From NCBI GenBank assembly GCA_903901975.1, contig CAIUTB010000040.1, forward strand, positions 1-64,000: a DNA stretch of 64,000 nucleotides, given 5' to 3'. The first letter of the stretch is position 1. Every line of letters begins with the position of its first letter. Shown here piece by piece: positions 35,868 through 54,923 of this stretch. Source of the DNA: an uncultured Bacteroidales bacterium (GTDB taxonomy: Bacteria > Bacteroidota > Bacteroidia > Bacteroidales > Paludibacteraceae). The position numbers and the translations under genes are program-made. The notes below the pieces were generated by a model. That model did no database searches. It saw only the letters and a list, made by a program, of their open reading frames with translations, and had not been told where the DNA came from.

Positions 35868-35884
35868 AGTGTCATATACACACA
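35868..35884. promoter_or_regulatory. Operator-like palindrome, site 1 (beside the Nudix gene)
   Basis: AGTGTCATATACACACA fits AGTGT-N7-ACACW. It lies where the -33 element of the Nudix gene should be, as expected for autoregulation. Three more copies are at 38144, 43269 and 54907. Confidence 0.6.
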
Positions 35885-35941
35885 ATTATTTTGATTATTA
35901 TAAAAACAAGTGACTTAGTCTAAAAAGATACGTACTATCCT

Positions 35942-35973
35942 TTTGTTAGTTCATTAAATCCTGATTATATTTG
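35942..35973 (+). promoter_or_regulatory. Promoter of the TPR/HTH regulator gene
   Basis: TTTG (35942-35945), a 20-bp spacer and TATATTTG (35966-35973) form a perfect Bacteroidota promoter. Because it covers the in-frame start codon at 35971, translation must begin downstream, at ATG 36094. Confidence 0.75.
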
Positions 35974-36093
35974 CAGAAGAAAAGTATTGTTTTTTCTAAA
36001 ACCAACGTTCTCAAGCTAATCGAACATATTATTAATGAGTTAATTTGTTTACTATCTATTTTGAAATTTAACTGTATTTGCCAAGCCTATAAA

Positions 36094-37737
36094 ATGAAAA
36101 ATAAATTAATTATTTTACTTTTTCTTACACTTCCACCTTGCTTCGTTTTTTCACAAAATGCACTGGATTCCTTGTTGACCCGAATAGATAGTTTAATCAA
36201 TGAATCAACTCTTTATTCAACAAAAAAGGAGGTTCGTATAAAAGGAATGAAGGATCAATTAAAAAGAAAAAAATCTGATTCTGAAAAACAATATGAACTT
36301 AATTATCAGTTATATAAAGAATATAAATCGTATATAAGTGATTCTGCCATTTATTACCTGCGTAAAAATGTAGAAATAGCTACTAAATTGAATGATAAAG
36401 AACGAATAAATCAATGTCAAATTCAACTTGCCTACTTAATGGGTTCTTTAGGAATGTACAAAGAGGGGGTGGATATTCTTGAAACAATTAATCGAACGAA
36501 ACTATCATCACACTTAATTTGCGATTATTATGCAGCCTATGATCATATATATGGCGAATTAGCATTTTATACTCAGGATAAAGAAAGTGCAAAGCACTAT
36601 CGTCAGATTTCAACTAATTATAAAGATTCGTTGAATAATTGTTTACCTATACACGATGAGTTACGGTTGATTTTGAAAGAAACGTATTTTCGTGATATTG
36701 GAAATTACACTGAAGCAGGTAAATTAAATGATATTCAGCTTCTCAAAGCAAAAAAAGAAACTCCGGAATATGCATTAACAACTTTCTACAGGGCTTTGTT
36801 ATACAGAAGGCAGGGTAAAATTGAAGAAGAAAAATATTATTTGGCGCTATCCGTCCTTTCAGATATTGCCATTGCGAATAAAGATCATGCTTCATTGTTT
36901 ATGTTAGCCCGAATTCTATATAATCAGGGCGATATTGAGCGGGCATATAACTATATTCGGTTCTCGTGGAGTGAAACCGTTTTTTATAATGCCCGTTTGA
37001 GGAGTTTACAGAGCGCATCTATATTATCACTAATTGATAAAACCTATCAGGCCAAAATTGAAAAGCAAAAATCACGCCTCAAGGATTACCTGATTTTAAT
37101 AAGTATTTTACTTTTAATTTTGTCTTTTATTGCGTATTATCTAAACCGGCAAATGAAGCGGTCGAAAGTTTTACAGAAAAATATTCAAGAAGCAAACATT
37201 CAGCTTGAAAATATAAACGAGGAGCTGAAGCAATTGAATGTTCAATTGTTATCTACTAATATTGACCTTTCGGAGGCTAATAAAATAAAAGAGGAATATA
37301 TTGGGCGATTTATTAAGCTCTGTTCAACTTATATCGACAAGTTGGATAGTTACCGTAGAATGATTAATAAAAAAATATCCAGTGGCCAAACTGCCGAAGT
37401 TTTAAAAATTACCCGTTCACAAGATGTTTTGGATAAGGAGTTTGAAGAGCTTTATGCCAATTTTGATGCTGCTTTTCTTCAATTATTTCCTGATTTTGTA
37501 AATAAAGTAAATGATTTATTTATCGAAGAAGATAATATTGTACTTAAAAGAGATGAAATATTCAATACGGAGTTAAGAATTCTGGCATTAATTCGATTGG
37601 GCATTAATGATAGTCAGCAAATAGCTGATTTTCTGAGATACTCAGTTAATACCATATACAACTATAGGGCTAAAATTAAAAACAGAGCCAATGTAACACG
37701 AACTGATTTTGAAAGTTTAATTATGCTGATTAGATAA
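36094..37737 (+). CDS. Membrane TPR regulator with C-terminal HTH (DUF6377-type)
   Basis: The start at ATG 36094 gives a signal peptide (MKNKLIILLFLTLPPCFVFS). About 547 residues. TPR-like helices cover 30-330, one transmembrane helix is near 333-351 (YLILISILLLILSFIAYYL), then a coiled coil (355-410, with repeated N-I/L-x-E). The C-terminal domain has EEYIGRFIKLCSTYIDKLDS and ends in an HTH (LRILALIRLGINDSQQIADF, LRYSVNTIYNYRAKIKNRA). This matches Bacteroidota membrane regulators annotated DUF6377. It probably senses periplasmic or envelope cues and acts on the adjacent glycan genes; the signal is unknown. Confidence 0.85.
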   Translation: MKNKLIILLFLTLPPCFVFSQNALDSLLTRIDSLINESTLYSTKKEVRIKGMKDQLKRKKSDSEKQYELNYQLYKEYKSYISDSAIYYLRKNVEIATKLNDKERINQCQIQLAYLMGSLGMYKEGVDILETINRTKLSSHLICDYYAAYDHIYGELAFYTQDKESAKHYRQISTNYKDSLNNCLPIHDELRLILKETYFRDIGNYTEAGKLNDIQLLKAKKETPEYALTTFYRALLYRRQGKIEEEKYYLALSVLSDIAIANKDHASLFMLARILYNQGDIERAYNYIRFSWSETVFYNARLRSLQSASILSLIDKTYQAKIEKQKSRLKDYLILISILLLILSFIAYYLNRQMKRSKVLQKNIQEANIQLENINEELKQLNVQLLSTNIDLSEANKIKEEYIGRFIKLCSTYIDKLDSYRRMINKKISSGQTAEVLKITRSQDVLDKEFEELYANFDAAFLQLFPDFVNKVNDLFIEEDNIVLKRDEIFNTELRILALIRLGINDSQQIADFLRYSVNTIYNYRAKIKNRANVTRTDFESLIMLIR

Positions 37738-37775
37738 TATTCGGAATTTTCCAATTTCTTTTTATACGCTATACT

Positions 37776-37812
37776 ACAGAGTTCAGGTTTATAACCTGAA
37801 CTCTGTTTTTTT
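37776..37812 (+). terminator. Intrinsic terminator after the TPR/HTH regulator
   Basis: ACAGAGTTCAGGTT pairs with AACCTGAACTCTGT across a 3-base loop and is followed by a run of T. It lies 38 bp after the stop. Confidence 0.92.
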
Positions 37813-38143
37813 CTCTATAGCCATTCTTCTTTCGTGTTCTATTTAAAACGATAGGTTTTGTTTATGTAAACAGTATTATTTATTGATGAATTCATTTTTA
37901 GTTGTTAATTTGATAGAAAAATAAATATTTATTCAGTAAATAGCTGCTTAATCATTTTTGTATTCGATTGTCTGGAAGTGTTATGATAATAACCCCAATA
38001 GCTAATCCACTTTTTTTTAGGTGTGCCAAAATTGTAAGTTCTTTATTATAAATAATATAGGGTGTATTTTATTGAACACTCATTCACTTTTTTATTCACG
38101 CTAAAATATTGAATAGCTGATTAAACTATTTTTGTTGAACGAA

Positions 38144-38160
38144 AGTGTAATAAATACACT
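38144..38160. promoter_or_regulatory. Operator-like palindrome, site 2
   Basis: AGTGTAATAAATACACT is a near-perfect palindrome fitting AGTGT-N7-ACACW. It lies 10 bp after a TATTTTTG -7 box, so it would cover the transcription start of the 38193 gene, a repressor-like location. Confidence 0.65.
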
Positions 38161-38192
38161 ATCACTTAAAACAATTTAATCATTTATTTATC

Positions 38193-39995
38193 ATGAAAAA
38201 CGCATTATTACTATCAATCTTACTTTTTCTGTCACTAAGTTTAGCAGCTCAAACATTAGAGAAGAATATCTTAATTGACTTTGGTCCGGTGGCTTCACCG
38301 GGATTAAGCACTGCAAATCCAGATGCCAATTTAAATTATTGGAATAACCACAATGCATTGACTGCACTTTCCACTACCGCACTTGTTGATACAACTAATA
38401 CAGCTAGTGGCATTACACTGAATATTGTGACTGCTTTCTTGGCAAATGGAGGAAGTAGTTCCGGAGGTTTGACCACTCCATCAACAGCTTTATTGGGAAA
38501 TTTCGCTATAGCAAATGCTACGCAAGATTATTTCTTCACACAAAATAATCAAAATGGCACCAGTACTTCTACTATGAAGTTTACGGGTTTGAATTTAGCT
38601 AAAGGCTATCGGTTTCAGATTTTTGGTTGTAGAATAACTGCAGACCCGATAAGAACGTCGAGATATACTTTTACAGGAGCAACATCAACTGTGGGAACTC
38701 TGCAAACTTCAGGCACCAATCTAGGGGGGACAGGAGTAAACGGAAATAATAGTACGATTTATTCAACACCAATAATTTATGCGGATGCAAATGGGGAGAT
38801 AAAACTTGATTTATCTATAGTAACGGGTGGGTATGCTTATATCAATGTTATGAGAATTCAGCAATATACTGCTCCCAAAGTTAATGTAACAAGTATTGCA
38901 GTTTCAGGAACAGCTATTTCAACTGAAAGTGGTACAACTCAAATGACAGCAACAATAACTCCATCGAATGCAACCGTGCAGGATGTGACTTGGAGTGTAA
39001 ATGATCCTTCCATTGCAACTATAAACTCTGCAGGTTTACTTACTGCAAAGAAAAATGGAGCAGTAACTGTAACAGCAACTACTAAAGAAGTTGGATCTAC
39101 CATATATGGAACGGCAGCAATAGTTGTAACAAATCAATCCGTTTTAGTTCCTACAAAACAACTATTTATTGATTTTGGTCCAAATGATGTAACCAATGGA
39201 AACACGACCTTAAGTCCGGATGCAAATAACAATTACTGGAATAATGCAACTGATCCGGCCCTGACAGCTACTCCTGTAAGTTTGATTGATAATGCAAATT
39301 CAGCTACCGGATTTAGTTTAGTGATTACGACAGCCATGACCAGAAATGGAATATTAAGTGGTGGTTTACTGGCTCCTAACAGTTCCTTTTTAGGTGAGTT
39401 TGCAGTTGCAACAGCCACCCAGGATTTTTTCTTTACCACCAATGCTACGACTCCGGGGCAATTGAAAATAACAGGACTTGACCCTAATAAGCAATATAAG
39501 TTTCGTATTTTTGGAAGCAGGGATGTTTCTGAAACCCGCATAGCCAGTTATACTTTCACCGGTTCAAACACGATGAACGGAACACTTCAGACATCAGGAG
39601 CCAATTTGGGAGGTATAGGGGTAAACGGTAATAATAGCAGCATTTTTTCTTCCACTATGATTTCTCCGAATGCCAGTGGAGAGATTACAGTTGATTTGGC
39701 TGTTTTGGTGGGTACTTATTCACACCTGAATATAATGAAAATAGAAGAGTATACTAATCTAACAACTTCGATAAATAAACAATCAGATACTTCAATGAAA
39801 GTTTATCCAGGAATTTTTGATAAAGAATTGAAAATTACAGGGGCTAAAAGTTCAATAGAAATATTTAATATGCTAGGTATAAGTGTTCTATCTTGTCAGG
39901 TTAATTCTGAAAAGCTTTTAAACACTTCAACACTCCAGAAAGGAACTTACATTTTGGTAGTTGATAAAAAAGAATGTTTTAAAATAATTAAATAA
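38193..39995 (+). CDS. T9SS-exported two-module protein with a bacterial Ig domain
   Basis: The 600-residue protein has a signal peptide (MKNALLLSILLFLSLSLAAQ). Module A (about 22-230) and module B (about 322-520) are repeats of one beta-rich unit (LIDFGP, NYWNN, QDYFFT, L-x-x-x-K-x-Y-x-F-x-I-F-G, LQTSGxNLGG, GVNGNNS). A Big_2-type Ig domain lies between (VTSIAVSGTAISTESGTTQM, 235-315). The C-terminus is a type IX sorting tail (MKVYPGIFDKELKITGAKSS, GTYILVV). No catalytic site is seen. It probably binds glycan or a surface structure. The next gene carries the same module, so the pair arose by duplication. Confidence 0.75.
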   Translation: MKNALLLSILLFLSLSLAAQTLEKNILIDFGPVASPGLSTANPDANLNYWNNHNALTALSTTALVDTTNTASGITLNIVTAFLANGGSSSGGLTTPSTALLGNFAIANATQDYFFTQNNQNGTSTSTMKFTGLNLAKGYRFQIFGCRITADPIRTSRYTFTGATSTVGTLQTSGTNLGGTGVNGNNSTIYSTPIIYADANGEIKLDLSIVTGGYAYINVMRIQQYTAPKVNVTSIAVSGTAISTESGTTQMTATITPSNATVQDVTWSVNDPSIATINSAGLLTAKKNGAVTVTATTKEVGSTIYGTAAIVVTNQSVLVPTKQLFIDFGPNDVTNGNTTLSPDANNNYWNNATDPALTATPVSLIDNANSATGFSLVITTAMTRNGILSGGLLAPNSSFLGEFAVATATQDFFFTTNATTPGQLKITGLDPNKQYKFRIFGSRDVSETRIASYTFTGSNTMNGTLQTSGANLGGIGVNGNNSSIFSSTMISPNASGEITVDLAVLVGTYSHLNIMKIEEYTNLTTSINKQSDTSMKVYPGIFDKELKITGAKSSIEIFNMLGISVLSCQVNSEKLLNTSTLQKGTYILVVDKKECFKIIK

Positions 39996-40035: not shown

Positions 40036-43000
40036 ATGAAAAAAATATTATTGCTTGCGAGCATTTTCTGCATACTTGTAAATTCCGGAGCTCAAACATT
40101 GAACCAGCGCTTATTTATTGATTTTGGTCCCAATGATGTTACGAACGGAAATATAACTGTAAGTCCCGACCTTAATGGTAATTACTGGAATAATGCCATT
40201 GATAACACCTTGAATGCAACATTAGCCTTGAAAAATGCGTTGAATGCAACTACCCCTTTTAATTTAGTGGTTACAAAGGCAATGTCGAAGAATGGTATTG
40301 CGTCTGGTGGATTATTAGCTCCAAGTGCAACACTTTTAGGTGAATTTGCAATAGCAACAGCTACTCAGGATTATTTTTTCACTACAAATGCCAGCACTCC
40401 CGGACAATTAAAAATTACGGGTCTGGATCCTTCTAAACAATATAAATTTTATATGTTTGGTAGTCGTAGTACAACTGAGACCAGATTTGTAAAGTATACG
40501 CTTACAGGTACTAATTCGATGTTTGGACTTCTTCAAACGTCAGGAACAAACCTTGGAGGTACTGGGATAAATGGAAATACAAGTGCTATTTTCACTTCAG
40601 ATATGATTTTTCCAACTACTGCGGGTGAAATTGTAATTGATATTGCTGTTTCTTCGGGAACTTATGCACATCTCAACATACTGAAGTTGGAAGAATATAG
40701 CGGACCGGTGATTAATGTAACCGGTGTAAGCGTATCAGGCAATGATATCACAGTTTCAGGTGCAACTTCACAGATGATAGCAACAATTTCTCCTTCAACA
40801 GCTACTATTAAATCAGTATCGTGGACAGTAAGTGATAATACTGTTGCAAGTGTTGATGGGAATGGAATTGTATATCCGAAGAAAAACGGTACAGTGACTG
40901 TTACTGCGACATCATCACAGGCAGGTACTGTAATTGCCGGCACTAAACAAATTACGATAAATAATCAACAATCAACGCTCTATTTTTCGGGAACGGCTAC
41001 TGAAAATGGCAATAATTTAGCAACCGCAATTCCCATGAAAATGGTTACTGATCAGCAGGGTCTTATAATTAGTGGAATATTTGAAATTTATACTTCGTTG
41101 AATGCATCCGGCACATTTAATTTTTATACAACAAAGGACCTTGGCACAGCAATAGTTTATGGTACAGGAGCTTCGGCAGGAACAATTCAATCTGGTGAGG
41201 CAGGCATTGATCCTGCTGAAACAGGAACCGTGTTGATTACAGTGAACGTGACAAATAATACCTATACCATTCTTCCTATTACAAATTGGAGTATTGTGGG
41301 AAGTACAATTCCAAGTGCATGGAATGGTGATGTGCCTCTGAGCTATCAGGGGAATGGAATTTGGTCAAGTACCGTTGCGCTTACAACTCTGGCTGCATCG
41401 GGTGATACACCCCGTTTTAATTTCAGAGCAAATGGTTCGTGGAGTTATGTAATGAAAAAAGTAACCGGAACTACAAATTCCTTGAGAATGGAATCTCAGG
41501 CAACCACCTATGGTGTTGCTGTTGGAGATATTCTTATGAATTATGGAACTTTTGTTATTACACTCGACTTGCGGAATTATACTTATTCAGTGGCTTGTAC
41601 AGCAATTGATCCGTTAAAGATTTCAGTAATGGGTTCATCAGTCGCCAATGGATACGGTGCAACAAATCAGCTTGGTTATGCTTATAAATACTCACAAATA
41701 TTAGCCCAACGCTATACGGATGGAAAAGGACAAAACTGGACTTATTCGAATATTTGTGTGAACGGAAATAGTACAGTCGATGTATTGAATCGCTGGGATA
41801 ATGATTTGTTGAACGATTGCAGTTCGTATGTTATCTATGGTCTTTCGCTTGGTAATGAAGGTATTATTGGTGGCGGACAGCCTATCTACGATCAGTTCAA
41901 AAACAACTTGTTGCTATTGATCTCAAAAGCACGGGCTGTTGGGAAAATTCCAGTAGTGATGAATAATTATACCCGAAATGATTATACTGCTACTGAATAC
42001 GCTTTTATTAAACAAATTGATATGCTTATTCACGAGTGGGATGTTCCGAGTATAAATATGTTGGGGGCTGTTGATAATGGAACCGGACAATATGCCACAG
42101 GATACTTTTTTGATGCATTGCATCCAAATGATTTGGGACATGCTGAAATATCCTATGCAATGGTATCTACTTTATTTGAAGCTTTACAAGCAGGAAAAGC
42201 TCAACCGGTTAAGAAAAGTGGAACCTATATTCTATCCGGTAAATCCGGAAGTTCTGACAAACTGGTTTTTGTCCCTGATAATATGATTCATCCATTCACT
42301 CTGTCATTTGATATTAAAACCAGTACCACTGGAACGATTGCTTCATTTAAACAGGGTACAAGTAATGGATTAATCAAAATTCAAGCCATCACCGGATTTA
42401 TAACTTATACATCACCTAATGGCGGAACAATAACCGGAAATGTAGCTGTAAATGATGGACAATGGCATAAAATAACCTTATCGCATTTTTATGCTCGGGG
42501 TGAAACTTTATTGTATAGTGACAATCATCTTGCCGGTAGTCTGGCAGAGAAACTAATAGCCGAAAAGTTCATTTTGAATGATCTGAATGCTCCGGATTTT
42601 ATTTATTACAAGGACTGGTTATTTTATCGTTCGGGTATGAATTCAACTGAAGTAGCTGCTTTAAATAATAATGAAATGCTTAAATCCAGCCTGGAATTAT
42701 ATTCACCACTCGATGGACAAGCCGTTTTAAGTCAAGATCCACTTGTTAATCTTGCTCAAAGCACGAATAAAATTCAAAAAAGTCAATTGTCAACGGGTTT
42801 GCAACAAAGTTTACAATCTGCAGATTTAAGTATTTATCCTAATCCGGTTTCAGAAACTCTTAGAATAAACGGATTATCCGGATCAGGAATCTATGAATGT
42901 ACTATATATGGCATTGATGGACGAATAGTTCTTAAACAACAAATTGCCAGAACGAATGAAATTAATACAGCAAATTTGTCTCCTACATTTTATTTGTTGA

Positions 43001-43285: not shown

Positions 43286-43291
43286 TATTTG

Positions 43292-45598: not shown

Positions 45599-48500
45599 AT
45601 GAAACACAACAACAAAAATCGAGAAAAAACGGAAGTGCAGAAAAATAGCGCTCGTTGGTTTCGGCGTACATTGCCACTTCTTTTTGCTATAGTCATTTCG
45701 CTAAATTTGTTAGCACAAAATGCAGCAGTTAATGGCGTAGTCGTCGACACAAAAAATGAACCTGTTATAGGGGCAAATATCTCTGTGAAAGGAACTAAAA
45801 TTGCAACTATCACTGATTTTAATGGTAAATTCAACATTAATGCAAAATCAGGCGATGTGTTAGTATTTAGCTACGTGGCAATGAATACCTTAGAACAAGC
45901 TGTTGGTGTAGCTAAAAATCTTAGAATTGTAATGACTGATAACACAAAAGCCCTCGATGAAGTAGTGGTAGTTGGTTATGGATCAGTTAAGAAAAAAGAT
46001 TTAACCACAGCAGTTTCAACCGTATCAACCAAAGATATTGATGAAAGACCCCTAATTTCGGCAGCTTCGGCTATTCAGGGTAAAGCATCCGGTGTAACGG
46101 TTATGCAACCAAGTGGTGAGCCTGGTGCAGGAATGGTAGTTCGTGTACGTGGAAATACATCCATCACAGCCAGTAACGATCCACTTTATGTAGTAGATGG
46201 TGTGCCAATGACAGAAATTAATTTTCTATCGCCAAACGATATCGAAAGTATGCAGATTTTAAAAGATGCATCCTCGGCGGCTATTTACGGTTCGCGTGCT
46301 TCGAATGGAGTAGTATTAATAACTACAAAATTAGGAAGTAAGGGACAGGCGAAAATCACGTTTAATGCTCACGCAGGTGTTACACAAGTCGTAAAGCAAA
46401 TTCAATCACTTAATACCTCGCAGTATAAAGCGTTGATGGACGAAATTGGAGCAGTTACTTTGCCTGATGGACTTGTAGATCAAACCGATTGGTTTAAAGA
46501 AACATACCGAACAGGAGTGACACAGGATTATCAGTTGTCATTATCGAATGCAACTGACAAAATGAGGTATTTCGTTTCAGGTGGCTTGACCAATGAATCG
46601 GGCGTGATACCTGTTGCTTATTATAAACGTTATAATTTAAGAGTAAATCTTGAAAACCAGATTCGTTCGTGGCTTAAATTAAGTACCAACCTGGCTTATT
46701 CTGATTATACTTCGAATGGTATTATCTCAGGTACAGGTTCTAACCGCGCCGGTGTAATTTTATCGGTAATCAATACACCAACTTATGCACCAATTTGGGA
46801 TACAACCAATCCAAAACAATATTATGAAAATTTCTATGGTGCACAAACAACCAGTCCGGTGGAGAATATGTCACGTACAGCCAACAATAAAACGAATAAC
46901 AACCGTTTTGTGGGCAGTGTAAGTGGCGATATTACATTCACAAAGGACCTGAAGTTTAAAACATCTGCTTCGATGGATCGTGTTTACTTTAATTCGACCA
47001 GTTTCCTTGATCCAATTTCAACTTCATACGGACAAACTCAACATGGTACTGCATCTGATAATCGTTCCCTGAGCACCATTTTGGTGTTTGATAATGTGTT
47101 GACTTATGATAAACAGATTGATAAACACGGTTTTAGTGTAATGGCGGGTTCATCGTATACCGGCTCAGACTGGAATCAGAGTTATCTGGGAGCTTCAAAT
47201 TTTATTGGTTCTGATATAAAAACCTTGAATGCAGGTAACAAAATTGATATTTGGGGAAGTGGCACCAATGGTTCACAATGGGCAATAATGTCATATCTCG
47301 GAAGGCTAACGTATAATTACGACAGTAAATATTTATTGACTGTAAACTTCCGTGCGGATGGTTCATCCAAATTAAATCCAACTCATCGTTGGGGTTATTT
47401 CCCATCAGCTTCAGCTGCATGGCGTATTTCGTCCGAAGATTTTATGAAACAATTTGAATGGATAGATGATTTAAAACTTCGTGGTGGCTGGGGAAAAGTC
47501 GGTAACCAATCTGGAATCGGTGATTATTCCTATTTGTATATGTATAATATCAGTCGTATTGATTGGACCATTCCTGCAAATGCAAATGCTACCGTGAGCA
47601 TATCACCTCCTTCTTCTATGCAAAATCCTGATTTGACATGGGAAACAACTACCGGCTCGAATATCGGTATCGATTTGACTGTTCTTAAAAGTAGAATTAC
47701 TTTCTCAATTGATGCCTATTATAAATATACTACGGACTTATTGTTAAACTTTAAAGTTCCGAGTACAAACGGAGATTTGTGGGTTACACGTAATGATGGT
47801 GAAATGAGCAATAAAGGGGTTGAGTTTACATTAAATACTAAGAACCTGACCGGAAAATTAAAATGGGAAACTGATTTTAATATGTCCTTCAACTCGAACC
47901 GGGTAGAAAAATTAAAAACACAACAGATTTATTCTTTCGGACAAACATCGGTTGGAGAGTTTATTACAAGAATGACACCTGGTTTGCCATTAGGAGCTTT
48001 TTATGGCTATATTGCCAAAGGAGTTGATCCCGAAACCGGTAATTTATTGTATCAAACCAAAAATGGAGACAGCAATTCACCACAATTGAGCGACCGCACA
48101 ATCATTGGTGACCCTAATCCTAAATTTACCTACGGTATGACTAATAATTTATCGTACCAGGGTTTCTCTCTGAATGTGTTTTTACAAGGTTCGTATGGTA
48201 ACAGTATTTTCAATGTTTCACGTATGGAAACAGAAGGTATGTATGATGCTAAAAACCAGTCGGTGGCTGTACTCGATCGTTGGGAACGCCCCGGAATGCT
48301 AACTTATATGCCAAAAGCAACTATTTCGAAAGCTAATTTATTGGCTTCAACGCGTTTTGTAGAAGATGGTAGTTATTTACGTCTGAAAGCATTGACTATG
48401 TCCTATAATTTTAGCGGATCGTTCTTCAAAAAATTGGGTATAACACGTCTACAACCTTATCTGACAGCTCAGAATCTGTTAACTCTGACAAAATACAAAG

Positions 48501-48613
48501 GATTTGATCCGGAAGTAAGTCAGTATGGTGGTGATCCTACTCAACAAGGCATTGATTATGGTACCTATCCACAGTCGAAGAGCTATATAATTGGAATTAA
48601 TGTTGAATTTTAA
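45599..48613 (+). CDS. SusC-like TonB-dependent outer-membrane transporter
   Basis: The 1004-residue protein has a signal peptide after a charged stretch (LPLLFAIVISLNLLAQ), a carboxypeptidase-regulatory-like domain (AAVNGVVVDTKNEPVIGANI), a TonB-box-type DEVVVVGYG, a plug domain (AIQGKASGVTVMQPSGEPGA, VRVRGNTSI) and a 22-strand barrel. It imports oligosaccharides together with the SusD lipoprotein encoded 12 bp downstream. It is 18 bp after the GH3 gene, in the same operon. Confidence 0.95.
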   Translation: MKHNNKNREKTEVQKNSARWFRRTLPLLFAIVISLNLLAQNAAVNGVVVDTKNEPVIGANISVKGTKIATITDFNGKFNINAKSGDVLVFSYVAMNTLEQAVGVAKNLRIVMTDNTKALDEVVVVGYGSVKKKDLTTAVSTVSTKDIDERPLISAASAIQGKASGVTVMQPSGEPGAGMVVRVRGNTSITASNDPLYVVDGVPMTEINFLSPNDIESMQILKDASSAAIYGSRASNGVVLITTKLGSKGQAKITFNAHAGVTQVVKQIQSLNTSQYKALMDEIGAVTLPDGLVDQTDWFKETYRTGVTQDYQLSLSNATDKMRYFVSGGLTNESGVIPVAYYKRYNLRVNLENQIRSWLKLSTNLAYSDYTSNGIISGTGSNRAGVILSVINTPTYAPIWDTTNPKQYYENFYGAQTTSPVENMSRTANNKTNNNRFVGSVSGDITFTKDLKFKTSASMDRVYFNSTSFLDPISTSYGQTQHGTASDNRSLSTILVFDNVLTYDKQIDKHGFSVMAGSSYTGSDWNQSYLGASNFIGSDIKTLNAGNKIDIWGSGTNGSQWAIMSYLGRLTYNYDSKYLLTVNFRADGSSKLNPTHRWGYFPSASAAWRISSEDFMKQFEWIDDLKLRGGWGKVGNQSGIGDYSYLYMYNISRIDWTIPANANATVSISPPSSMQNPDLTWETTTGSNIGIDLTVLKSRITFSIDAYYKYTTDLLLNFKVPSTNGDLWVTRNDGEMSNKGVEFTLNTKNLTGKLKWETDFNMSFNSNRVEKLKTQQIYSFGQTSVGEFITRMTPGLPLGAFYGYIAKGVDPETGNLLYQTKNGDSNSPQLSDRTIIGDPNPKFTYGMTNNLSYQGFSLNVFLQGSYGNSIFNVSRMETEGMYDAKNQSVAVLDRWERPGMLTYMPKATISKANLLASTRFVEDGSYLRLKALTMSYNFSGSFFKKLGITRLQPYLTAQNLLTLTKYKGFDPEVSQYGGDPTQQGIDYGTYPQSKSYIIGINVEF

Positions 48614-48625: not shown

Positions 48626-50122
48626 ATGAAAAATATACAAAAACTAGCTTATTTATTAACGATAACCTTTGTCGTTAGTTCGTGTGATTTGAATCTGATA
48701 CCAGTCTCAAGCTTCAATGAGAAAAATCATGGAGGTACAGATAGTGTAGGAAATACGGTGAAGTTTAAAAACAGAGCTGAGATGCTTGCTGCTTATACCT
48801 ATATGTACAACATTTTGACCAAAAATGAAGGAATTGAAGGTTGGACTGCTGATATGCTGATTTATTCGGATACACATGCCGATAATTCTTATCGTGGTGC
48901 TTCCGACGTCGAATTAACCCAGTTGGAACAACAAAAACAAGATGGTATTAATAAAAATATCAATCGTGACTGGGATTATTACTTCGCTATCATTGGTGCA
49001 GCTAATAACGTGATTTGCAATATAGATTCAGTTCCTGACGCTTCATTCACTCTGGCAGAACGGAAACAATGGAAATCAGAAGGACTTATTTTGCGGTCCA
49101 TGATGTATTTCGACCTGGTTCGCCTTTGGGGTGACGTGCCATTAGTAACCGTACAACCACCAGCAATTACCAATGCCAATATCGAAACTGTATATCCTTT
49201 GTATTATCCGCCACGTGATTCATCTGCCAAAGTGTATCGTCAGATTATCAAAGACTTAAAATATGCATTGGAAGCTGATGGCGCACCTGCCATTGATAAT
49301 ACAAATAAATTCAAATTTTCCAAAACAGTCGCCAATGCGTTGCTGGCAAAGATTTATGCCGAAAAACCTGTACGCGATTATGATAAAGTAATTTTCTACA
49401 GTGGCGAAGTGGAAAAAGATGTAACGTTGGTTCCAAATTTTGGCGATTTGTTTGATATGAATACCGCCAAAACCGATGTAAAATCCCGAAATACTTCAGA
49501 ATCTATTTTTGAGATTAATTTTTCAGGAGGTGGGCTTTGGTTTACCTGGTTGGTTGGACTTGACCAATCCGATCCAAACAGTAAATATGACTGGGCAAAA
49601 TGGTTTACACCTTCACGCGATTTAACTGCTGCTTTTGTTGCAGCCGGAGATAATGTTAGAATGAACCAAACCATTATCAAGGCAACCGTTACCTGGAGTA
49701 ACGAATATCCCTCAGTTAATTATCCATTCATGTACAAATACCGCTCGAAATACAGCAGTGTGATAAAACTTCGTTTAGCTGATATATTGTTATTGAAGGC
49801 TGAGGCATATGTTGGTAAAAGCGATATCGCTAATGCAACATCACTTGTCAACCGCACCCGCACCCGGGCTGGTTTAACCAATTTGTCAACTGTAACCATT
49901 GATGATGTGTTGAAAGAAAGACGACTGGAGTTGGCATTTGAAGGTCAGCGATGGTTCGATTTGGTTCGAAATGATAAAGTTATTGATGTGATGAATTCAC
50001 TTAACAGCCGTGATGTCGGTCGATTAGCAATGGATCAGGTGAATCAGAATAAGACCTTACTACCAATTCCTCAACCACAGATTGATAAAAATCCTTCTAT
50101 GGTTCAAAATCCGGGATATTAA
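48626..50122 (+). CDS. SusD/RagB-family glycan-binding lipoprotein
   Basis: The 498-residue lipoprotein has lipobox VSSC (Cys20). SusD features are the N-terminal helical part (AEMLAAYTYMYNILTKNEG), the WKSEGLILRSMMYFDLVRLW motif (shortened here: RSMMYFDLVRLWGDVPLV) and the C-terminal DVLKERRLELAFEGQRWFDL followed by LLPIPQPQIDKNP. It caps the SusC barrel on the cell surface and binds the imported oligosaccharide. Confidence 0.95.
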   Translation: MKNIQKLAYLLTITFVVSSCDLNLIPVSSFNEKNHGGTDSVGNTVKFKNRAEMLAAYTYMYNILTKNEGIEGWTADMLIYSDTHADNSYRGASDVELTQLEQQKQDGINKNINRDWDYYFAIIGAANNVICNIDSVPDASFTLAERKQWKSEGLILRSMMYFDLVRLWGDVPLVTVQPPAITNANIETVYPLYYPPRDSSAKVYRQIIKDLKYALEADGAPAIDNTNKFKFSKTVANALLAKIYAEKPVRDYDKVIFYSGEVEKDVTLVPNFGDLFDMNTAKTDVKSRNTSESIFEINFSGGGLWFTWLVGLDQSDPNSKYDWAKWFTPSRDLTAAFVAAGDNVRMNQTIIKATVTWSNEYPSVNYPFMYKYRSKYSSVIKLRLADILLLKAEAYVGKSDIANATSLVNRTRTRAGLTNLSTVTIDDVLKERRLELAFEGQRWFDLVRNDKVIDVMNSLNSRDVGRLAMDQVNQNKTLLPIPQPQIDKNPSMVQNPGY

Positions 50123-50155: not shown

Positions 50156-51574
50156 ATGAAAAATACATTTAAATATATATTAATTGCCGGCTTGTCAACT
50201 TTTCTGTGGGCTTGTACAAACCCCGAAGATGTAGTGGTGCGTTATGCTGCATCCACTCCTAAAATTGATACGGCTGTAGTGAAAGAAGCGCAAATTACCT
50301 ATGGTGATTCAATTCATTTAAAAATAGCCGTTTCTGATAAAGTGGCACCTCTGTCAACCCTGGTTTTAAGAGTTGTCTGTAATAATGAGGTGGTAACTTC
50401 CGAAACTATCCGGACTAAAGGAAATTCAATGAGTATTAATCGTACGTTTAAAGTGCCTTTTGTGGCTAATCGTCCGGACAATACTCCTGTCAAAATTTAT
50501 TTGACTGAAACCAATGTTAGTGGAATTACGAAAGATTCAATAATTAGTACAACTATTGCCAAACGTCCTGCATTTCCAGAATTATGGCTGGTTACCGATG
50601 GAACGGCTAGGGGTGTAAAACTTGATTTAACTGATCCGGTAAATCTAATTTATTCAATAAAGGGACTGACATTTGGTACCACTATATCGTATAAATTAGC
50701 TACAAAAGTAAAAACTCCATTTAAAAAATTAGACTGGAGTGGACTCGTTTTTGGAAAAGTTGGTGATGGAGTAGGTGTTACTGACTCAATCAGTAACTCA
50801 GTTAGCAATGCTTCAATTATTACGACTGATGCTACCTTGGTTGGCATTTCGGAATTTACGTTCGATGCGCTGAAATTTACCGTTAAAGTAGGTGGAAAAT
50901 TACTCGAACCAGTTACTACATTGGATGTGATAGCAGATCTACTTCTAAATCCGGCTTCGTTGGGTAGTCCTACCGGTTTCCGCGGTGGAAATATCTATTT
51001 TGGAGAAGGTGTGGAAGTTACATTTTCCAATATTACAAATTTGGCCAATAATTTATCACCTGATTACTTCCAGGTTACAGGTACAAATACAGCCAAATTC
51101 CTGGGAAAAACCGGATTGTATAAGGCATACTTTTTGACAACTGCTAACTACTTATACATTGAACCTCAGCCTGAAGCACTTTATCCAGATGTTGTGTGGG
51201 TTTGTGGTACAGGTTTTGGCCGTCCACAGTCACCTTACGCCAGTACTTCGAGTTGGAATTGGAACAGTCCGTTAGACTATTATGCAACCCGTAAAATTGC
51301 AAATGGAATTTATCAGGTTACGATGTATTGTAAAAACGAACCTAGCACCGATACAAATATTTATGGGAAATGTGATTTTAAATTTTTCCATAAACGTGGT
51401 TGGTGGGATGGACATGAATTGTGGGTCGACACGTATACCCTGACTCCTCCATTTCTGGGACCAACAGGAGTAGGCGGTAATGTGAAGTTGTTAAGTGCAA
51501 CTGTACTTGATGGTGTTTATCGATTTACAGTAAATGAAAATGATAAAACCTTTACAGCTGTAAAACTAAACTAA
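50156..51574 (+). CDS. Surface glycan-binding lipoprotein (SusE/F position)
   Basis: The 472-residue lipoprotein has lipobox LWAC (Cys20). The N-terminal region is Ig-like (about 30-130). Later beta domains include FLGKTGLYKAYFLTTANYLY and a SusE/F-like C-terminus (VWVCGTGFGRPQSPYAST, KCDFKFFHKRGWWDGHELW). Exposed Trp-rich loops suggest sugar binding. It follows susD by 33 bp, the usual site of surface glycan-binding proteins. Related DUF5121/DUF5125-type proteins occur in beta-glucan loci; that match is from memory. Confidence 0.8.
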   Translation: MKNTFKYILIAGLSTFLWACTNPEDVVVRYAASTPKIDTAVVKEAQITYGDSIHLKIAVSDKVAPLSTLVLRVVCNNEVVTSETIRTKGNSMSINRTFKVPFVANRPDNTPVKIYLTETNVSGITKDSIISTTIAKRPAFPELWLVTDGTARGVKLDLTDPVNLIYSIKGLTFGTTISYKLATKVKTPFKKLDWSGLVFGKVGDGVGVTDSISNSVSNASIITTDATLVGISEFTFDALKFTVKVGGKLLEPVTTLDVIADLLLNPASLGSPTGFRGGNIYFGEGVEVTFSNITNLANNLSPDYFQVTGTNTAKFLGKTGLYKAYFLTTANYLYIEPQPEALYPDVVWVCGTGFGRPQSPYASTSSWNWNSPLDYYATRKIANGIYQVTMYCKNEPSTDTNIYGKCDFKFFHKRGWWDGHELWVDTYTLTPPFLGPTGVGGNVKLLSATVLDGVYRFTVNENDKTFTAVKLN

Positions 51575-51630: not shown

Positions 51631-53112
51631 ATGATTGATTCTAAATTTCTGTTTTCACTAGTCGCATTTATTGGATTATCATTGTCTTCCTGTAAGACAG
51701 AAGAGGTTATAACCCCAATAATAACTCCTGTTCAAAAAGATGTTGATTTGTATGTTACAACAGCGAATAAATCGATGCTATATGTCAATATTCCTTTGGC
51801 ATTCAGTACAAAACCGAATATGGCGATTGAAACTACCATCAATCTAAAACCTACAGAAACTTATCAGCAAATCGATGGTTTTGGTGCAGCCATTACCGGT
51901 TCAAGCTGTTATAATCTGCTTAAAATGACAACTGCAAATAGGGCAGCTATCCTAAAAGAAACTTTTGACCCGGTAAATGGTATGGGTTACAGTTATATTC
52001 GTATTTCAATCGGAGCGTCTGATTTTTCAATGGATGAATATACTTGTTGCGATACACCGGGAATTGAGAATTTTACTCTGAATGCCTATGATATTCATGA
52101 TTTACTGCCGGTTTTGAAAGAAATTTTGGCTATTAATCCTAATTTGAAAATTCTCGGTTCACCCTGGACTTGTCCACGTTGGATGAAAGTGAATAATCTG
52201 ACTGATTTACAACTTTATAATTCGTGGACGAGTGGTCAGCTTAATCCGAAATACTATCAGGATTATGCCACTTATTTTGTGAAATTTGTTCAAACTATGC
52301 AGCACGAAGGGATCAATATTGATGCTATAACTATTCAAAATGAACCGTTGAATCGTGGAAATTCTGTTTCTTTGTATATGAGTTGGCAGGAACAGGCTGC
52401 TTTTATCAAAACAGCTTTAGGTCCTAAGTTTGCGGAAGCAGGAATTACAACTAAAATTGTTGCTTTTGATCATAATTACAATTACGATAATATCAGCGAC
52501 CAAATGAGTTATCCGGTGAAAATGTATGCTGACCCTGAAGTGGCCAAGTATCTGGATGGTGCAGCTTATCATGCCTACGGTGGTGATAAAAGTGAGTTGA
52601 TAAATGTTCATACAGCTTATCCTTCTAAAAATCTGTACTTTACCGAAATGTCAATCGGCACATGGAATTATAGTTTTGATGGAGATTTAATGTGGAGTAT
52701 GCGTGAACTGGGGATTGGCACCTTGAATAATTTCTGTAAATCAGTAATTGTGTGGAATTTTATGCTCGACGAAAAAGGAGCTCCATATCGTCCGGGAGGT
52801 TGTAATACTTGTTATGGTGCAGTTCAAATAAACTCTTCAGATTATAAAACACTAGATCGAAAATCACATTTTTATGTTATTGGTCATTTAGCGAAAGCTA
52901 TTTCAGCTGGTGCAACCCGCATTGGAACAAGTGGTTTCCAAACCTCAGGCTTATATTATACGGCTGTTCAAAATCTTGATGGAACGTATGGAGTTGTATT
53001 GCAAAATGATACAGATAGTTCTATAAAAGTAACTTTAGACGATGCGGTTCATTCGTTCAGCTATATTATTCCTGCAAAAAGTATTGTTTCCTGTCGCTGG
53101 AAGAAATCATAA
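51631..53112 (+). CDS. GH30 family glucanase, lipoprotein
   Basis: The 493-residue lipoprotein has lipobox LSSC (Cys21). The GH30 barrel shows IDGFGAAITGSS (81-92), acid/base E238 in ITIQNEPLN and nucleophile E339 in LYFTEMSIG, then a C-terminal beta sandwich side domain (RIGTSGFQTSGLYYTAVQNL). In SusCD loci with GH3, GH30 enzymes of this kind typically cleave beta-1,6-glucan, so a surface endo-glucanase is likely. A glucosylceramidase-like specificity cannot be excluded by sequence alone. Confidence 0.9.
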   Translation: MIDSKFLFSLVAFIGLSLSSCKTEEVITPIITPVQKDVDLYVTTANKSMLYVNIPLAFSTKPNMAIETTINLKPTETYQQIDGFGAAITGSSCYNLLKMTTANRAAILKETFDPVNGMGYSYIRISIGASDFSMDEYTCCDTPGIENFTLNAYDIHDLLPVLKEILAINPNLKILGSPWTCPRWMKVNNLTDLQLYNSWTSGQLNPKYYQDYATYFVKFVQTMQHEGINIDAITIQNEPLNRGNSVSLYMSWQEQAAFIKTALGPKFAEAGITTKIVAFDHNYNYDNISDQMSYPVKMYADPEVAKYLDGAAYHAYGGDKSELINVHTAYPSKNLYFTEMSIGTWNYSFDGDLMWSMRELGIGTLNNFCKSVIVWNFMLDEKGAPYRPGGCNTCYGAVQINSSDYKTLDRKSHFYVIGHLAKAISAGATRIGTSGFQTSGLYYTAVQNLDGTYGVVLQNDTDSSIKVTLDDAVHSFSYIIPAKSIVSCRWKKS

Positions 53113-53170
53113 ACTATTCAGGAGTATTTCTTTTAAAATTTGAAATCACAACGTTTTAAACACATATATT

Positions 53171-54826
53171 TTGAAACAGATATTAAAAAATATTTTTACT
53201 TTTGTCGTTTTGTTTTTTTTTCATCAAGTAGCTGTTTCACAAGTTGTAACCCCTTGGCTAACTACCGGTGATAAAACCAAACTTCTTCAACAACAATCTA
53301 CCCTTAGTTTTGCTGTCAATTCAACATCAGTAGGCAATACTATGACAATTAATCCCGCTTCAACTTTTCAGAATGTGGATGGATTTGGTTATTGTATGAC
53401 TGAAGGTAGTGCTGAGGTTATCAGTTCGTTGGTCAGCGTTCAACAAGATGCTTTATTAAGTGAATTATTTGATAAAAATAATGGTTTAAGCATTTCTGTC
53501 TTGAGAATCAGCATTGGTGCTTCCGATTTAAGTTCGTCCAATTACAGTTACAATGAAACTTCTGGGGATACAAATATGGCAAACTTTAGTCTGGCAGGAC
53601 CGGATTTGACCTATTTAATTCCAATTTTGAAAAAAGTACTCGTTATTAATCCTGATATTAAAATATTGGCAACACCGTGGTCACCACCACGATGGATGAA
53701 ATCCAATACTTCCTGGATTGGTGGAAGCTTAAATACAGTCAGTTACGCTGCTTATGCAACTTATTTTGTAAAATATATTGCAGCAATGAAAGCGCAGGGA
53801 ATAACTGTTTGGGGCATTACGCCACAAAATGAACCGGAAAATCCAAATAATAATCCAAGTATGTTGATGACCTCAACTGAACAGAAAAATTTTATCAACA
53901 ATAATCTTGGTCCCGCACTTGCTACTGCCGGATATTCAACGGTAAAAATCATAGCTTTTGATCATAATTGTGATAATACTGCTTATCCGATTGATGTTTG
54001 CAACAACAGCAGCTATGTTGATGGAGCGGCATTTCATCTATATGCAGGCAATATTTCTGCACTAAGCACTGTCAAAAATGCAACGAATAAGAATGTGTAT
54101 TTTACTGAACAATATACCGCTTCAACTGGTAGTTTCTCTGGTGATTTTGGTTGGCACATGCAGAATGTGGTAATTGGCGCTTCAAATAATTGGGCAAAAG
54201 TAGTGCTTGAATGGAATGTTGCTAATAATTCATCGATTGGACCCTATACCTCGGGTGGATGTAATACTTGTTTGGGTGCAATAACCATCAATAGCTCTAC
54301 AACCTTTACCCGTAACGTAGCCTATTATATTATCGGACAAATTTCTAAATTTGTTCATTCGGGAGCTACCCGAATAGGAGTTTCTTCAAGCAGTTCATCT
54401 TTAATTGCCAGCGCATTTTTAAATACCAATGGCACAATGGCTTTGGTAAGCTACAATTCGTCATCTTTGGCTCAAAGTGTCAAAATTGTTGTTGGTGCCA
54501 ATTCGTTTTCCTATAGCATACCGGGTTCATCTGCCTGTACTTTTAGTTGGAATAATGCTACTCAGGCTGTTTCCGAATTACAAATAGAAGACCAAAAATT
54601 ACATATTACACCCAATCCGGCTGTTAATGAAATAAACCTGACTTTTCCATTAACTGTCAAAGCCAATATAGCATTAGTTTCCTTAAATGGTTATGTTCTA
54701 TTTCAACAAGATATTTCCAATGTCTCTGAATCAAAAATCAACACCCATAAACTTTCTTCGGGCATTTACCTGGTAAGGTTGCAAGACGAAAAAAACAGTA
54801 TTTTCTCCAGATTTATTAAAAGTTGA
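53171..54826 (+). CDS. GH30 family glucanase with T9SS sorting tail
   Basis: The start is TTG 53171, because only it gives a signal peptide (MKQILKNIFTFVVLFFFHQV, then AVSQ); no in-frame ATG precedes the conserved domain. The 551-residue protein has NVDGFGYCMTEGSAE (68-82), acid/base E221 in ITPQNEPENP and nucleophile E313 in VYFTEQYTAS. The C-terminus (from about 530 of the coding region's last 80 residues) is a type IX sorting domain (LHITPNPAVNEINLTFPLTV, GIYLVRLQ). It is a paralogue of the preceding lipoprotein GH30, but released or attached through type IX secretion. Confidence 0.9.
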   Translation: MKQILKNIFTFVVLFFFHQVAVSQVVTPWLTTGDKTKLLQQQSTLSFAVNSTSVGNTMTINPASTFQNVDGFGYCMTEGSAEVISSLVSVQQDALLSELFDKNNGLSISVLRISIGASDLSSSNYSYNETSGDTNMANFSLAGPDLTYLIPILKKVLVINPDIKILATPWSPPRWMKSNTSWIGGSLNTVSYAAYATYFVKYIAAMKAQGITVWGITPQNEPENPNNNPSMLMTSTEQKNFINNNLGPALATAGYSTVKIIAFDHNCDNTAYPIDVCNNSSYVDGAAFHLYAGNISALSTVKNATNKNVYFTEQYTASTGSFSGDFGWHMQNVVIGASNNWAKVVLEWNVANNSSIGPYTSGGCNTCLGAITINSSTTFTRNVAYYIIGQISKFVHSGATRIGVSSSSSSLIASAFLNTNGTMALVSYNSSSLAQSVKIVVGANSFSYSIPGSSACTFSWNNATQAVSELQIEDQKLHITPNPAVNEINLTFPLTVKANIALVSLNGYVLFQQDISNVSESKINTHKLSSGIYLVRLQDEKNSIFSRFIKS

Positions 54827-54844
54827 AGATTTACCCGCTAATTT

Positions 54845-54865
54845 CAGTAAAAAACTGATTTTTTT
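54845..54865 (+). terminator. Weak terminator after the second GH30 gene
   Basis: TCAGT-AAAAA-ACTGA followed by seven T. The stem is only 5 bp, but the T-tract and position 19 bp after the stop fit a terminator. Confidence 0.45.
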
Positions 54866-54886
54866 AAGCGAAAACATTTTGATCTG

Positions 54887-54918
54887 TTTGCTTGTTATAG
54901 ATAAATAGTGTATTTTTG
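54887..54918 (+). promoter_or_regulatory. Promoter of the starch-binding-like protein gene
   Basis: TTTG (54887-54890), 20-bp spacer, TATTTTTG (54911-54918): an exact Bacteroidota promoter. The leader to ATG 55119 is long, about 190 nt. Confidence 0.75.
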
Positions 54919-54923
54919 ACACA
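54907..54923. promoter_or_regulatory. Operator-like palindrome, site 4
   Basis: AGTGTATTTTTGACACA fits AGTGT-N7-ACACW and covers the -7 element completely, as expected for a repressor site. Confidence 0.65.

Follow-up and report, generated by a model that had tools for sequence, protein, structure and literature searches.

Gene Content of the Locus

The window, that is, the whole 64-kb stretch of DNA that was analysed, contains a glycan locus with the following genes.

35057..35827, minus strand: nudR, NrtR/AraR-family regulator of 256 aa with a Nudix-like domain and a winged helix (Pfam and BtAraR similarity)
35971..37737, plus strand: SusR-family regulator gene, ORF probably starting at ATG 36094 (NCBIfam NF058541, 584.8 bits, cut-off 480)
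38193..39995, plus strand: accessory protein, Big_2 domain and weak T9SS sorting-domain match
40036..43056, plus strand: GDSL-type esterase/lipase-family protein, Big_2 and T9SS sorting domain
43289..45580, plus strand: GH3 family enzyme, ORF probably starting at ATG 43373
45599..48613, plus strand: SusC-like transporter, Plug and CarboxypepD_reg-like domains
48626..50122, plus strand: SusD-like protein
50156..51574, plus strand: probable surface glycan-binding protein with weak matches to DUF5016/DUF5121
51631..53112, plus strand: GH30 endo-1,6-beta-glucanase, BT3312 type (NF053856, 763.8 bits, cut-off 700)
53171..54826, plus strand: second GH30 with a T9SS sorting domain
55119..56414, plus strand: starch-binding-like protein, partial CBM53 match

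The locus combines a GH30 endo-1,6-beta-glucanase with a SusCD pair and a GH3 enzyme, as expected of a 1,6-beta-glucan PUL, and 1,6-beta-glucan, a glucan of fungi, is its predicted substrate.

The Regulator NudR

The regulator encoded at 35057..35827, for which the name NudR was coined in this analysis, matched the Pfam families NrtR_WHD (2.1e-26), AraR_C (7.9e-10) and NUDIX (2.9e-7). PF00293, PF21906 and PF19368 were all above cut-off, placing NudR in the NrtR family with an N-terminal Nudix-like domain and a C-terminal NrtR winged helix, and its closest solved relative was BtAraR (E 9.5e-44; 5bs6 and three further entries). The Nudix box, defined as REUXEEXGU (PMC4666351), is degenerate in NudR (SRILKEQTGL) and near-identical across 17 orthologs. 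The recognition-helix residues Asp178, Lys179, Arg180 and Asn181 of BtAraR are identical in 18/18 NudR proteins; Lys184 is replaced by Arg, and Lys204 and Arg205 of the minor-groove wing by His and Lys, so that the DNA contacts would not all be shared with BtAraR.

In the sugar pocket, the equivalents of Arg86, Phe129 and His131 are retained, and Gly48-Phe49 of BtAraR differs in 18/18 proteins, being Asn-His in 17 and Asn-Gln in the NudR of the window. Arg34 is also retained according to the phmmer alignment, whereas MAFFT places Glu there; the former was preferred, as a matter of judgement, because the neighbouring Phe then aligns too. BtAraR carrying the F49Q mutation retained DNA binding in the presence of 0.5 mM arabinose (PMC4666351). 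Among the regulators above 100 bits kept for the residue comparison, the Gly-Asn-His/Gln pocket signature occurred in 23 rows, and as 18 of these came from the NudR clade alone, what it says about the ligand is thin. The NudR proteins formed their own clade (support 100/98), outside both the AraR clade and the XylR-like clade, and no arabinose genes were found as neighbours of nudR when the window was scanned and the ortholog loci were compared with the window genes. By its sequence, NudR represents a new clade within the known NrtR/AraR sugar regulators.

Palindromic Sites in the Window and the Genome

An earlier note on this DNA had described four copies of an AGTGT-N7-ACACW palindrome, at 35868, 38144, 43269 and 54907, and no further exact copy in intergenic DNA; an exact search of the 64-kb window bore out both statements. 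Five matches were counted at these four places because the 38144 site is a perfect palindrome that is read on both strands. The shuffled window gave a mean of 0.18 exact matches, and five were reached in 0/100 shuffles. The genome-wide scan of the 17-bp pattern that the note had proposed located six places in the 3.97-Mb genome, four of them in the window and within 19 kb. The remaining two had no operator-like look: one (C143) lies between a terminator-like hairpin and the 3' end of what we judge by eye to be sppA, and the other (C146) lies inside what we read by eye as a tRNA gene.

With one mismatch allowed, 13 matches were found in the window against a shuffle mean of 6.8 (13 was reached in 5/100 shuffles), which is mildly above chance; a fifth site at 43338-43354, ATTGTGTTTCTGACACT (ATTGT-N7-ACACT), is one mismatch from the pattern and had been overlooked. 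A matrix was built from the sites of other genomes, the window excluded, using 26 sites from L040-L056, with L041 site 13639 left out, together with 20 O2-type sites; three of the latter (L042 1715, L043 5484 and L045 1685) do not belong to the main pairs. It returned exactly these five window sites, at 22.8-18.5 bits, and the next score was 11.5, a drop of 7 bits. The spacer preference was for N7, with 31 sites at N7 and 0 at N6 and N8.

It could be argued that AT-rich intergenic DNA simply yields look-alike palindromes, as genome-wide counts of a loose pattern were near control: 139 versus 125 in the reversed control for 18 NudR genomes, barely above it; 103 versus 135 for 19 genomes lacking a close ortholog; and, for WKTGT-N7-ACACW in the own genome, 24 and 31 strand matches versus 30 and 29, which is background. 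Outside the locus, a loose match therefore takes its meaning only from position and context, and the case for O2, the fifth site, is built on its conserved position and on the matrix. Nevertheless, the local enrichment, the matrix gap, the N7 preference and the cross-genome conservation described below leave chance or composition with a negligible probability.

Predicted Operators and Promoters

The predicted operators and the accompanying promoter elements are as follows.

35840..35847, minus strand: -7 element of nudR, TATCTTTG (consensus match only)
35868..35884: predicted operator at the nudR own promoter, AGTGTCATATACACACA (matrix score 22.8)
38127..38134, plus strand: -7 element of the accessory unit, TATTTTTG (consensus match only)
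38144..38160: predicted NudR operator AGTGTAATAAATACACT, just after the accessory-unit -7 (score 22.3)
43269..43285: predicted operator O1, AGTGTAAAATAAACACA, directly upstream of the main-operon -33 (score 21.0)
43292..43295, plus strand: -33 TTTG of the main operon (consensus match only)
43316..43323, plus strand: -7 TATATTTG of the main operon (consensus match only)
43338..43354: predicted operator O2, ATTGTGTTTCTGACACT, in the main-operon 5' leader (score 18.5)
54907..54923: predicted NudR operator AGTGTATTTTTGACACA, enclosing the -7-like TATTTTTG at 54911-54918 (score 22.0)

The promoter positions given in the earlier note held on inspection, the promoter elements being matches to the -33/-7 consensus only. 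The 35868 site overlaps the expected -33 of the nudR promoter, suggesting that NudR may be autoregulated; the 38144 site starts 9 bp beyond a -7; the 43269 site ends 6 bp ahead of the TTTG at 43292; and the 54907 site covers a -7-like element.

Conservation of the Predicted Operator Layout

The operator layout is retained with the NudR orthologs of 17 related genomes, namely those of 18 close ones that have long flanks (G168, split over two contigs, was excluded); as these relatives share ancestry, the following counts are not independent. In 20/20 promoters, the window included, the distance from the start of O1 down to the -7 is 46-48 bp. The list of these promoters was hand-picked from sites before the -7 of a glucan or accessory unit; it excludes the nudR-own sites, the starch-binding-gene sites and L046 1517 (also at 47 bp), and takes O1 in L051 and L054 from a looser pattern (ending in G or C). 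O2, searched with a pattern fixing TTGT, lies just inside the transcript in 18/20 promoters, the window included. The starts of O1 and O2 are 63-69 bp apart (67-69 in 17/18), about 6.5 helix turns, a spacing that does not favour a simple loop. The imperfect half of O2 is kept (ATTGT in 17/18 and GTTGT in one), for which symmetry gives no explanation.

The nearly fixed distance from O1 to the -7, found also ahead of accessory units (L053 and L055), and a site 46 bp above a -7 in two AraR-clade loci (L072 and L074, in a comparison excluding L179_b and BtAraR) would equally suit a dual switch, in which NudR activates the main operon from O1 (centre around -50) by touching RNA polymerase and represses at O2 and the other sites. 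However, inducer binding lowers the DNA affinity of AraR, the closest relative that has been studied (PMC4666351), and four of the five window sites occupy positions at which a bound protein should be obstructive, with O2 in the leader; a dual switch thus seems rather unlikely. The suggestion in the earlier note that one unit is activated found no support, since the 43269 site pairs with 43338 to bracket the promoter and the others are in repressor-like places.

SusR-Type Boxes and the Distribution of the Sites

Control of Bacteroides glycan loci is generally attributed to SusR, to hybrid two-component systems or to ECF sigma/anti-sigma pairs, and published SusR motifs consist of two boxes in tandem at a spacing of 67 or 77 bp (PMC3878776). 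The palindromes might then belong to the SusR-family regulator encoded in the locus, given the O1-O2 distance of 63-69 bp and the ACTTAGTGT / ACTTATTGT that O1 and O2 often share. Among 80 sampled beta-1,6-glucan GH30 loci, 43 bear SusR; the palindrome site was present in only 1/43 of these, but in 3/3 loci with NudR in view (three contigs among the 17 orthologs). The palindrome sites track NudR, not SusR. In the 17 ortholog regions, SusR was the best match for no ORF (unmatched ORFs below about 120 aa being hidden).

Some SusR loci carry boxes of another kind. Pairs of TCCACTTT-type boxes exactly 77 bp apart precede SusC in 7/43 SusR loci and in L143 (upstream cut); the box was derived from 17 hand-chosen loci of the 43, four of which have AGTACTTTT-type boxes and others no clear pair. 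The window contains one such pair.

38006..38015, plus strand: SusR-type box 1, TCCACTTTTT (77-bp-step pair)
38083..38092, plus strand: SusR-type box 2, TTCACTTTTT (77-bp-step pair)

A search of the window for YCACTTT boxes in pairs, at a step of 60-82 bp, found this pair (38007/38084), ahead of the accessory unit, and no other; before the main SusCD operon, there was thus no pair of this YCACTTT type, the form searched for among the box variants of different lineages. SusR was therefore rejected as the palindrome binder on distribution and on its own boxes, and we regard it as a highly improbable one.

The boxes at 38007/38084, missed by the earlier note, make the 38.1-kb promoter a composite carrying SusR-type boxes and a predicted NudR operator, and one genome thus holds both site types. 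An NrtR-type regulator accompanies the same glucan machinery in the Paludibacter group, and in three further loci the machinery has as its neighbour either a Reg_prop/Y_Y_Y regulator or a pair of ECF sigma and FecR genes. NudR seems to have displaced membrane-bound SusR, a regulator common among its relatives, at the main operon. The occurrence of the same machinery with SusR, NrtR-type or other regulators, together with one genome holding both site types, makes regulator replacement directly testable.

Paralogs and Residue 179

The genome encodes two other NrtR proteins, one XylR-like (C129) and one AraR-like (C55), either of which might read the palindromes, being of the same family and having, for the AraR clade of relatives, genes with near-identical sites. 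However, both lack Lys179 (Val and Ile, respectively) and are on other contigs, and no palindrome site was found in the 16 and 18 kb examined around them. Across loci, excluding L179_b and BtAraR and with a paralog set of 16 regions picked from a longer list, Lys179 occurred with AGTGT half-sites in 28/36, Val with ATTGT in 4/7 and Asn with AGCGT/AACGT in 4/4. The XylR-like loci, so labelled because an FGGY kinase and a sugar transporter adjoin the regulator, carried ATTGT-N7-ACAAT in 4/7 and AGTGT pairs in none. Eight of the 36 Lys179 loci had no exact site within 600 bp, and there were misses among the Lys179 relatives, namely L169 and L173 with no good site and L170 with a weaker one (16.0 bits). 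The paralogs were rejected as binders on residue 179, a very improbable alternative in our view. The match between residue 179 and the half-site offers a simple rule to predict operators in this group. To our knowledge, AraR is the sole member of the group studied in depth.

Proposed Mechanism

The regulon of a Nudix/winged-helix regulator put forward in the earlier note is strongly supported by the BtAraR-like layout, the kept helix residues, the joint retention of the regulator and its sites across 17 other genomes and the near-absence of the sites from SusR loci. From what the sequence provides, namely the sites, their conservation, the family, the residue-base match and the SusR-type box pair, we infer binding, repression, an effector and displacement with its direction. 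NudR is probably a sugar-released dimeric repressor of the NrtR/AraR family, dedicated to the beta-1,6-glucan locus through five operators, with SusR displaced at the main operon. Each winged helix would read one AGTGT half-site, the dimer spanning AGTGT-N7-ACACW. Sugar-free NudR would occupy its own -33, the accessory unit after the -7 and the -7 of the starch-binding-like gene, and would bracket the promoter of the main GH3-SusCD-GH30 operon with a strong O1 above the -33 and a weaker O2 in the leader. A cytoplasmic sugar from the glucan (glucose or beta-glucobiose) may enter the Nudix-like pocket and draw the two winged helices towards each other, the movement that arabinose causes in BtAraR, freeing the promoters. 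NudR would thereby replace periplasm-sensing SusR at the main operon; at the accessory promoter, the sole place with remaining SusR-type boxes, SusR would activate and NudR repress.

More tentatively, and with somewhat less than an even chance, NudR may be the tip of an unrecognised class of regulators that sit within Bacteroidales glycan loci. These would be NrtR-type repressors of the cytoplasm that follow a modular code (residue 179 for the half-site, residues 48-49 for the sugar class) and can replace SusR, ECF sigma or other sensors, so that sensing moves from the periplasm to the cytoplasm; in NudR promoters, the strong O1 and an O2 kept imperfect on purpose would form a graded or two-step switch.

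Comparison with Known Systems

The NrtR repressors that control NAD metabolism, such as 3gz5 (MutT/nudix family), share the Nudix-like domain and winged helix with NudR (E 1.1e-11), whereas NudR stands in a glycan context and scored 90.5 bits against the NCBIfam model NF050029, well short of the cut-off of 400. Besides AraR and XylR, no NrtR regulator tied to a PUL was found in the open-access literature searched, and no NrtR regulator was found in passages of PMC5507952. XylR of Bacteroidetes (BT0791 type) is an NrtR-family sugar regulator of similar length to NudR (PMC3878776); the XylR-like proteins of the Paludibacter group, compared here in place of BT0791 itself, differ from NudR in Val179, in ATTGT half-sites (4/7 loci) and in forming a separate clade.

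The 1,6-beta-glucan PUL of Bacteroides thetaiotaomicron, BT3309-BT3314, has SusCD, GH30, GH3 and a DUF5016-type binding protein, as in the window (PMC5481569, PMC3878776). A SusR-family gene is likewise present in the window as in this SusR-type PUL, whereas the main operon of the window has predicted NudR operators instead of a SusR-type box pair.

AraR of B. thetaiotaomicron (BT0354) resembles NudR over both domains and in its Asp-Lys-Arg-Asn helix and its degenerate Nudix box, and its operators have the AGTGT-N7-ACAC layout of the predicted NudR sites (PMC4666351). The BtAraR gel-shift fragments, one of which was also crystallised, contain AGTGT-N7-ACAC(C/T), the 17-mers being delimited in this analysis (PMC4666351). 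The two differ in clade and in the residues of pocket positions 48-49 and the wing, and AraR is associated with arabinose genes, whereas NudR is associated with one beta-1,6-glucan locus. The sites of AraR before araM are in tandem, 3 or 42 nt apart (PMC4666351), whereas the paired sites predicted for NudR bracket the promoter.

Occurrence and rarity of the palindromic sites

An earlier note on this DNA had proposed that four copies of the palindrome AGTGT-N7-ACACW define the regulon of a Nudix-type regulator, here called NudR. A pattern search of the window confirmed all four of the 17-bp sites, and a fifth, at a position also occupied in relatives, emerged when one mismatch was permitted.

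35057-35827 (-), nudR, NrtR/AraR-family regulator (Nudix-like domain and winged helix)
35868, site at the nudR promoter
38144, site at the accessory unit
43269 and 43338 (ATTGTGTTTCTGACACT, one mismatch), predicted operators O1 and O2 on the two sides of the main GH3-SusCD-GH30 promoter (-7 at 43316-43323)
54907, site at the starch-binding-like gene

A scan of the whole genome (3.97 Mb, 170 contigs) found the exact pattern at six places, four of them inside the window. By eye, we take one of the two outside matches to lie inside a tRNA gene, while the other presumably has an sppA-like gene on one side and a terminator-like hairpin on the other. In dinucleotide-shuffled versions of the window, exact matches averaged 0.18. 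A weight matrix trained on other genomes only gave the five window sites scores of 22.8, 22.3, 22.0, 21.0, and 18.5, the sixth-best match scoring 11.5. The top match in each of 20 random sequences as long as the window, generated by a first-order Markov model, averaged 13.8 (maximum 21.3); a lone strong match can thus arise by chance, but not the set of five. Spacer counts showed a preference for N7 (31 sites) over N5 (10), N9 (6), and N6 and N8 (none each); in our reading, the N5 and N9 counts are partly due to GTGTGT repeats.

Predicted DNA-reading residues of NudR

The best match of NudR among solved structures was AraR of Bacteroides thetaiotaomicron (BtAraR; E 9.5e-44), whose residue numbering is used here. 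As described in PMC4666351, the BtAraR gel-shift fragments contain AGTGTATTTGATACACC, AGTGTTACTTTTACACC, and AGTGTAAAAAAGACACT, and in the BtAraR-DNA complex the first G of GTGT is bonded by Lys179 and an A of ACAC by Asn181, with Arg180 intercalating and the wing residues Lys204 and Arg205 entering the minor groove. The Asp178-Lys179-Arg180-Asn181 stretch was retained in 18 of 18 NudR proteins, as in BtAraR; unlike BtAraR, NudR has Arg in place of Lys184, and His and Lys as wing residues.

We compared residue 179 with the half-sites in the 600 bp upstream of the regulator at 50 loci. AGTGT pairs were found in 28 of 36 loci with Lys179 and in one of two with Arg179, ATTGT pairs in 4/7 with Val179, and AGCGT or AACGT pairs in 4/4 with Asn179; the single Ile179 locus had none. 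When the region was extended to 1 kb, with loci treated as unrelated, Lys179 differed from the other residues (29/36 vs 1/14, Fisher p 2.5e-6), also after removal of the NudR orthologs (13/18 vs 1/14, p 2.9e-4). The palindromes of the Asn179 relatives (AGCGT-N7-ACGCT or AACGT-N7-ACGTT; L181 at 8460, L182 at 10508, L057, and L058) lie just upstream of the regulator, and possibly hint at a residue-to-base rule. Locus L179 encodes two NrtR-type regulators, close together on the same strand (8959-9744 and 10773-11465), with Asp-Lys-Arg-Asn in the recognition helix of one and Asp-Pro-Gly-Asn in that of the other.

The window's genome encodes three NrtR winged-helix proteins. The paralog on contig C129 has Val179 and adjoins an FGGY sugar kinase and a sugar transporter, and is thus XylR-like. 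The paralog on contig C55 (L066) has Ile179 and falls in the AraR clade; one of its two scanned neighbours is an S1/P1 nuclease and the other had no match. No AGTGT site was found in the regions around these two paralogs (16 kb and 18 kb, respectively). The L066 protein is perhaps a regulator with changed or lost targets. In the tree, NudR formed a clade of its own (100/98), nearest to the proteins of L169-L171 (100/100) and set apart from AraR (92/70) and the XylR-like proteins (100/100).

Conservation of the predicted operators

Among 200 family genomes, NudR orthologs of at least 71% identity occurred in 18 besides the window's, two of them of a sister genus; in one, the gene is split over two contigs, with the second piece at 65% identity. 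Longer flanks were analysed for 17 of the 18. SusC lay downstream of the operator in 16 of these 17 loci, with GH3 in front in 15 and SusD in 13, several contigs ending mid-unit; in the seventeenth (L056), the contig stops just past the promoter region. The operator was kept in four loci (L042, L043, L045, and L046) although their SusC shares only 31-34% identity with that of the window.

In all 20 promoters (the window and the 17 loci, L053 and L055 each entering twice), O1 started 46-48 bp upstream of the -7, and in 18 of them O2 started 63-69 bp downstream of the O1 start; the search for O2 found none in the two loci of the sister genus (L047 and L048). In an unselected check of all WGTGT-N7-ACACW sites on both strands of 50 loci, 26 of the 42 TAnnTTTG matches within 100 bp downstream started at 46-48 bp. 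At nudR's own promoter, six relatives have the operator start 44-47 bp upstream of the -7; in the window this distance is 37 bp. At the starch-binding-like gene, a -7 falls inside the operator in both the window and L040. The site is present in L041 with no clear -7, and L044 has the gene with no exact site.

The O2 half facing the -7 is ATTGT, the type seen at XylR-like genes, in 17 of 18 (the window and 17 further promoters), and the far half is ACACT in 17 of 18 and ACACC in L040. This asymmetry is conserved. In L053 (1438 and 2382) and L055 (3654 and 4496), a separate small unit has an O1/O2 promoter of its own; in L053 this unit encodes a GDSL-type esterase, paralleling the GDSL gene of the window's accessory unit.

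In 295 genomes of the order, 14 others had relatives (E below 1e-60, 45-59% identity), and nine of the 14 regions (L171, L172, and L174-L180) carried an exact match in the 1 kb preceding the regulator gene. SusCD and GH30 were again adjacent in L170 and L171; L177 lies beside genes for a sugar transporter, a GH94 phosphorylase, and GH3; L178 lies beside GH9; and L176, L179, and L180 have ORFs equal in size to the GH94 ORF. No adjacent glycan genes were recognised in L169, L173, and L182.

NudR and SusR at beta-1,6-glucan loci

NCBIfam places the gene at 51631-53112 in the endo-1,6-beta-glucanase group of BT3312 (above cut-off). Around it lie genes for GH3, SusC, SusD, a probable surface binding protein, another GH30, which has a T9SS tail, a GDSL-type protein, and two other proteins. 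Downstream of the locus lies a gene for a 23S rRNA intervening-sequence family protein (57566-57940). Divergent from nudR, the window further encodes a SusR-family protein, which scores over its cut-off.

A SusR match was present in 43 of the 80 GH30 loci taken from named records, and only one of these 43 had a NudR-type site (L133 at 956, distant from the operon). Sites occurred in all three loci with NudR in view (contigs of three genomes already among the orthologs), and in two related loci ending at a contig edge (L086, which is the G170 contig, and L089). Three loci with neither regulator in view were inspected for others: upstream of SusC, L079 and L080 have a Reg_prop/Y_Y_Y protein and L083 an ECF sigma/FecR pair; L083 had one site of only 10.4 bits. 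All three carry the same beta-1,6-glucan gene set.

Pairs of YCACTTT boxes with a step of exactly 77 bp lay upstream of SusC in seven SusR loci out of the 43 and in L143 (upstream cut), in agreement with the published tandem structure of SusR motifs (67 or 77 bp; PMC3878776); the remaining 36 have variant boxes, or no boxes matching this heptamer. The sole such pair in the window (38007/38084; 38006-38092) is immediately above the NudR site at 38144, and none precedes the main operon. Because a SusR-type pair stands beside a NudR site, the accessory promoter is predicted to be a composite activator/repressor promoter. The predicted operator at 43338 and this putative composite promoter in the 38.1 kb region are additions to the earlier note.

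Sign of regulation and comparison with known systems

Taken together, the conservation of the sites, the retained Asp-Lys-Arg-Asn, and the rarity of sites at SusR loci support the predicted NudR regulon. The suggestion that one unit is activated is unproven: O1 alone is ambiguous as to the sign of regulation, and we favour repression, since BtAraR loses DNA affinity with arabinose and four of the five window sites lie on or after promoter elements. The NudR pocket, like that of AraR, retains the equivalents of Arg86, Phe129, and His131; unlike AraR (Gly-Phe, residues 48 and 49), it has Asn-His/Gln. Phe49 of BtAraR lies at C4/C5 of arabinose (PMC4666351). We suggest that a polar residue at this position could take the CH2OH of a hexose. 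Outside NudR, His49 occurs in L169-L171 and L176-L180; of the five of these loci whose neighbours were scanned, four (L170, L171, L177, and L178) lie next to beta-glucan-type genes and one (L169) lacks such neighbours. B. thetaiotaomicron has a 1,6-beta-glucan PUL with a gene set of the same kind as the window's, and BT3309, the regulator of that PUL, is described as of the SusR type (PMC5481569). NudR forms a new clade within a known regulator family, and its predicted role is uncommon.
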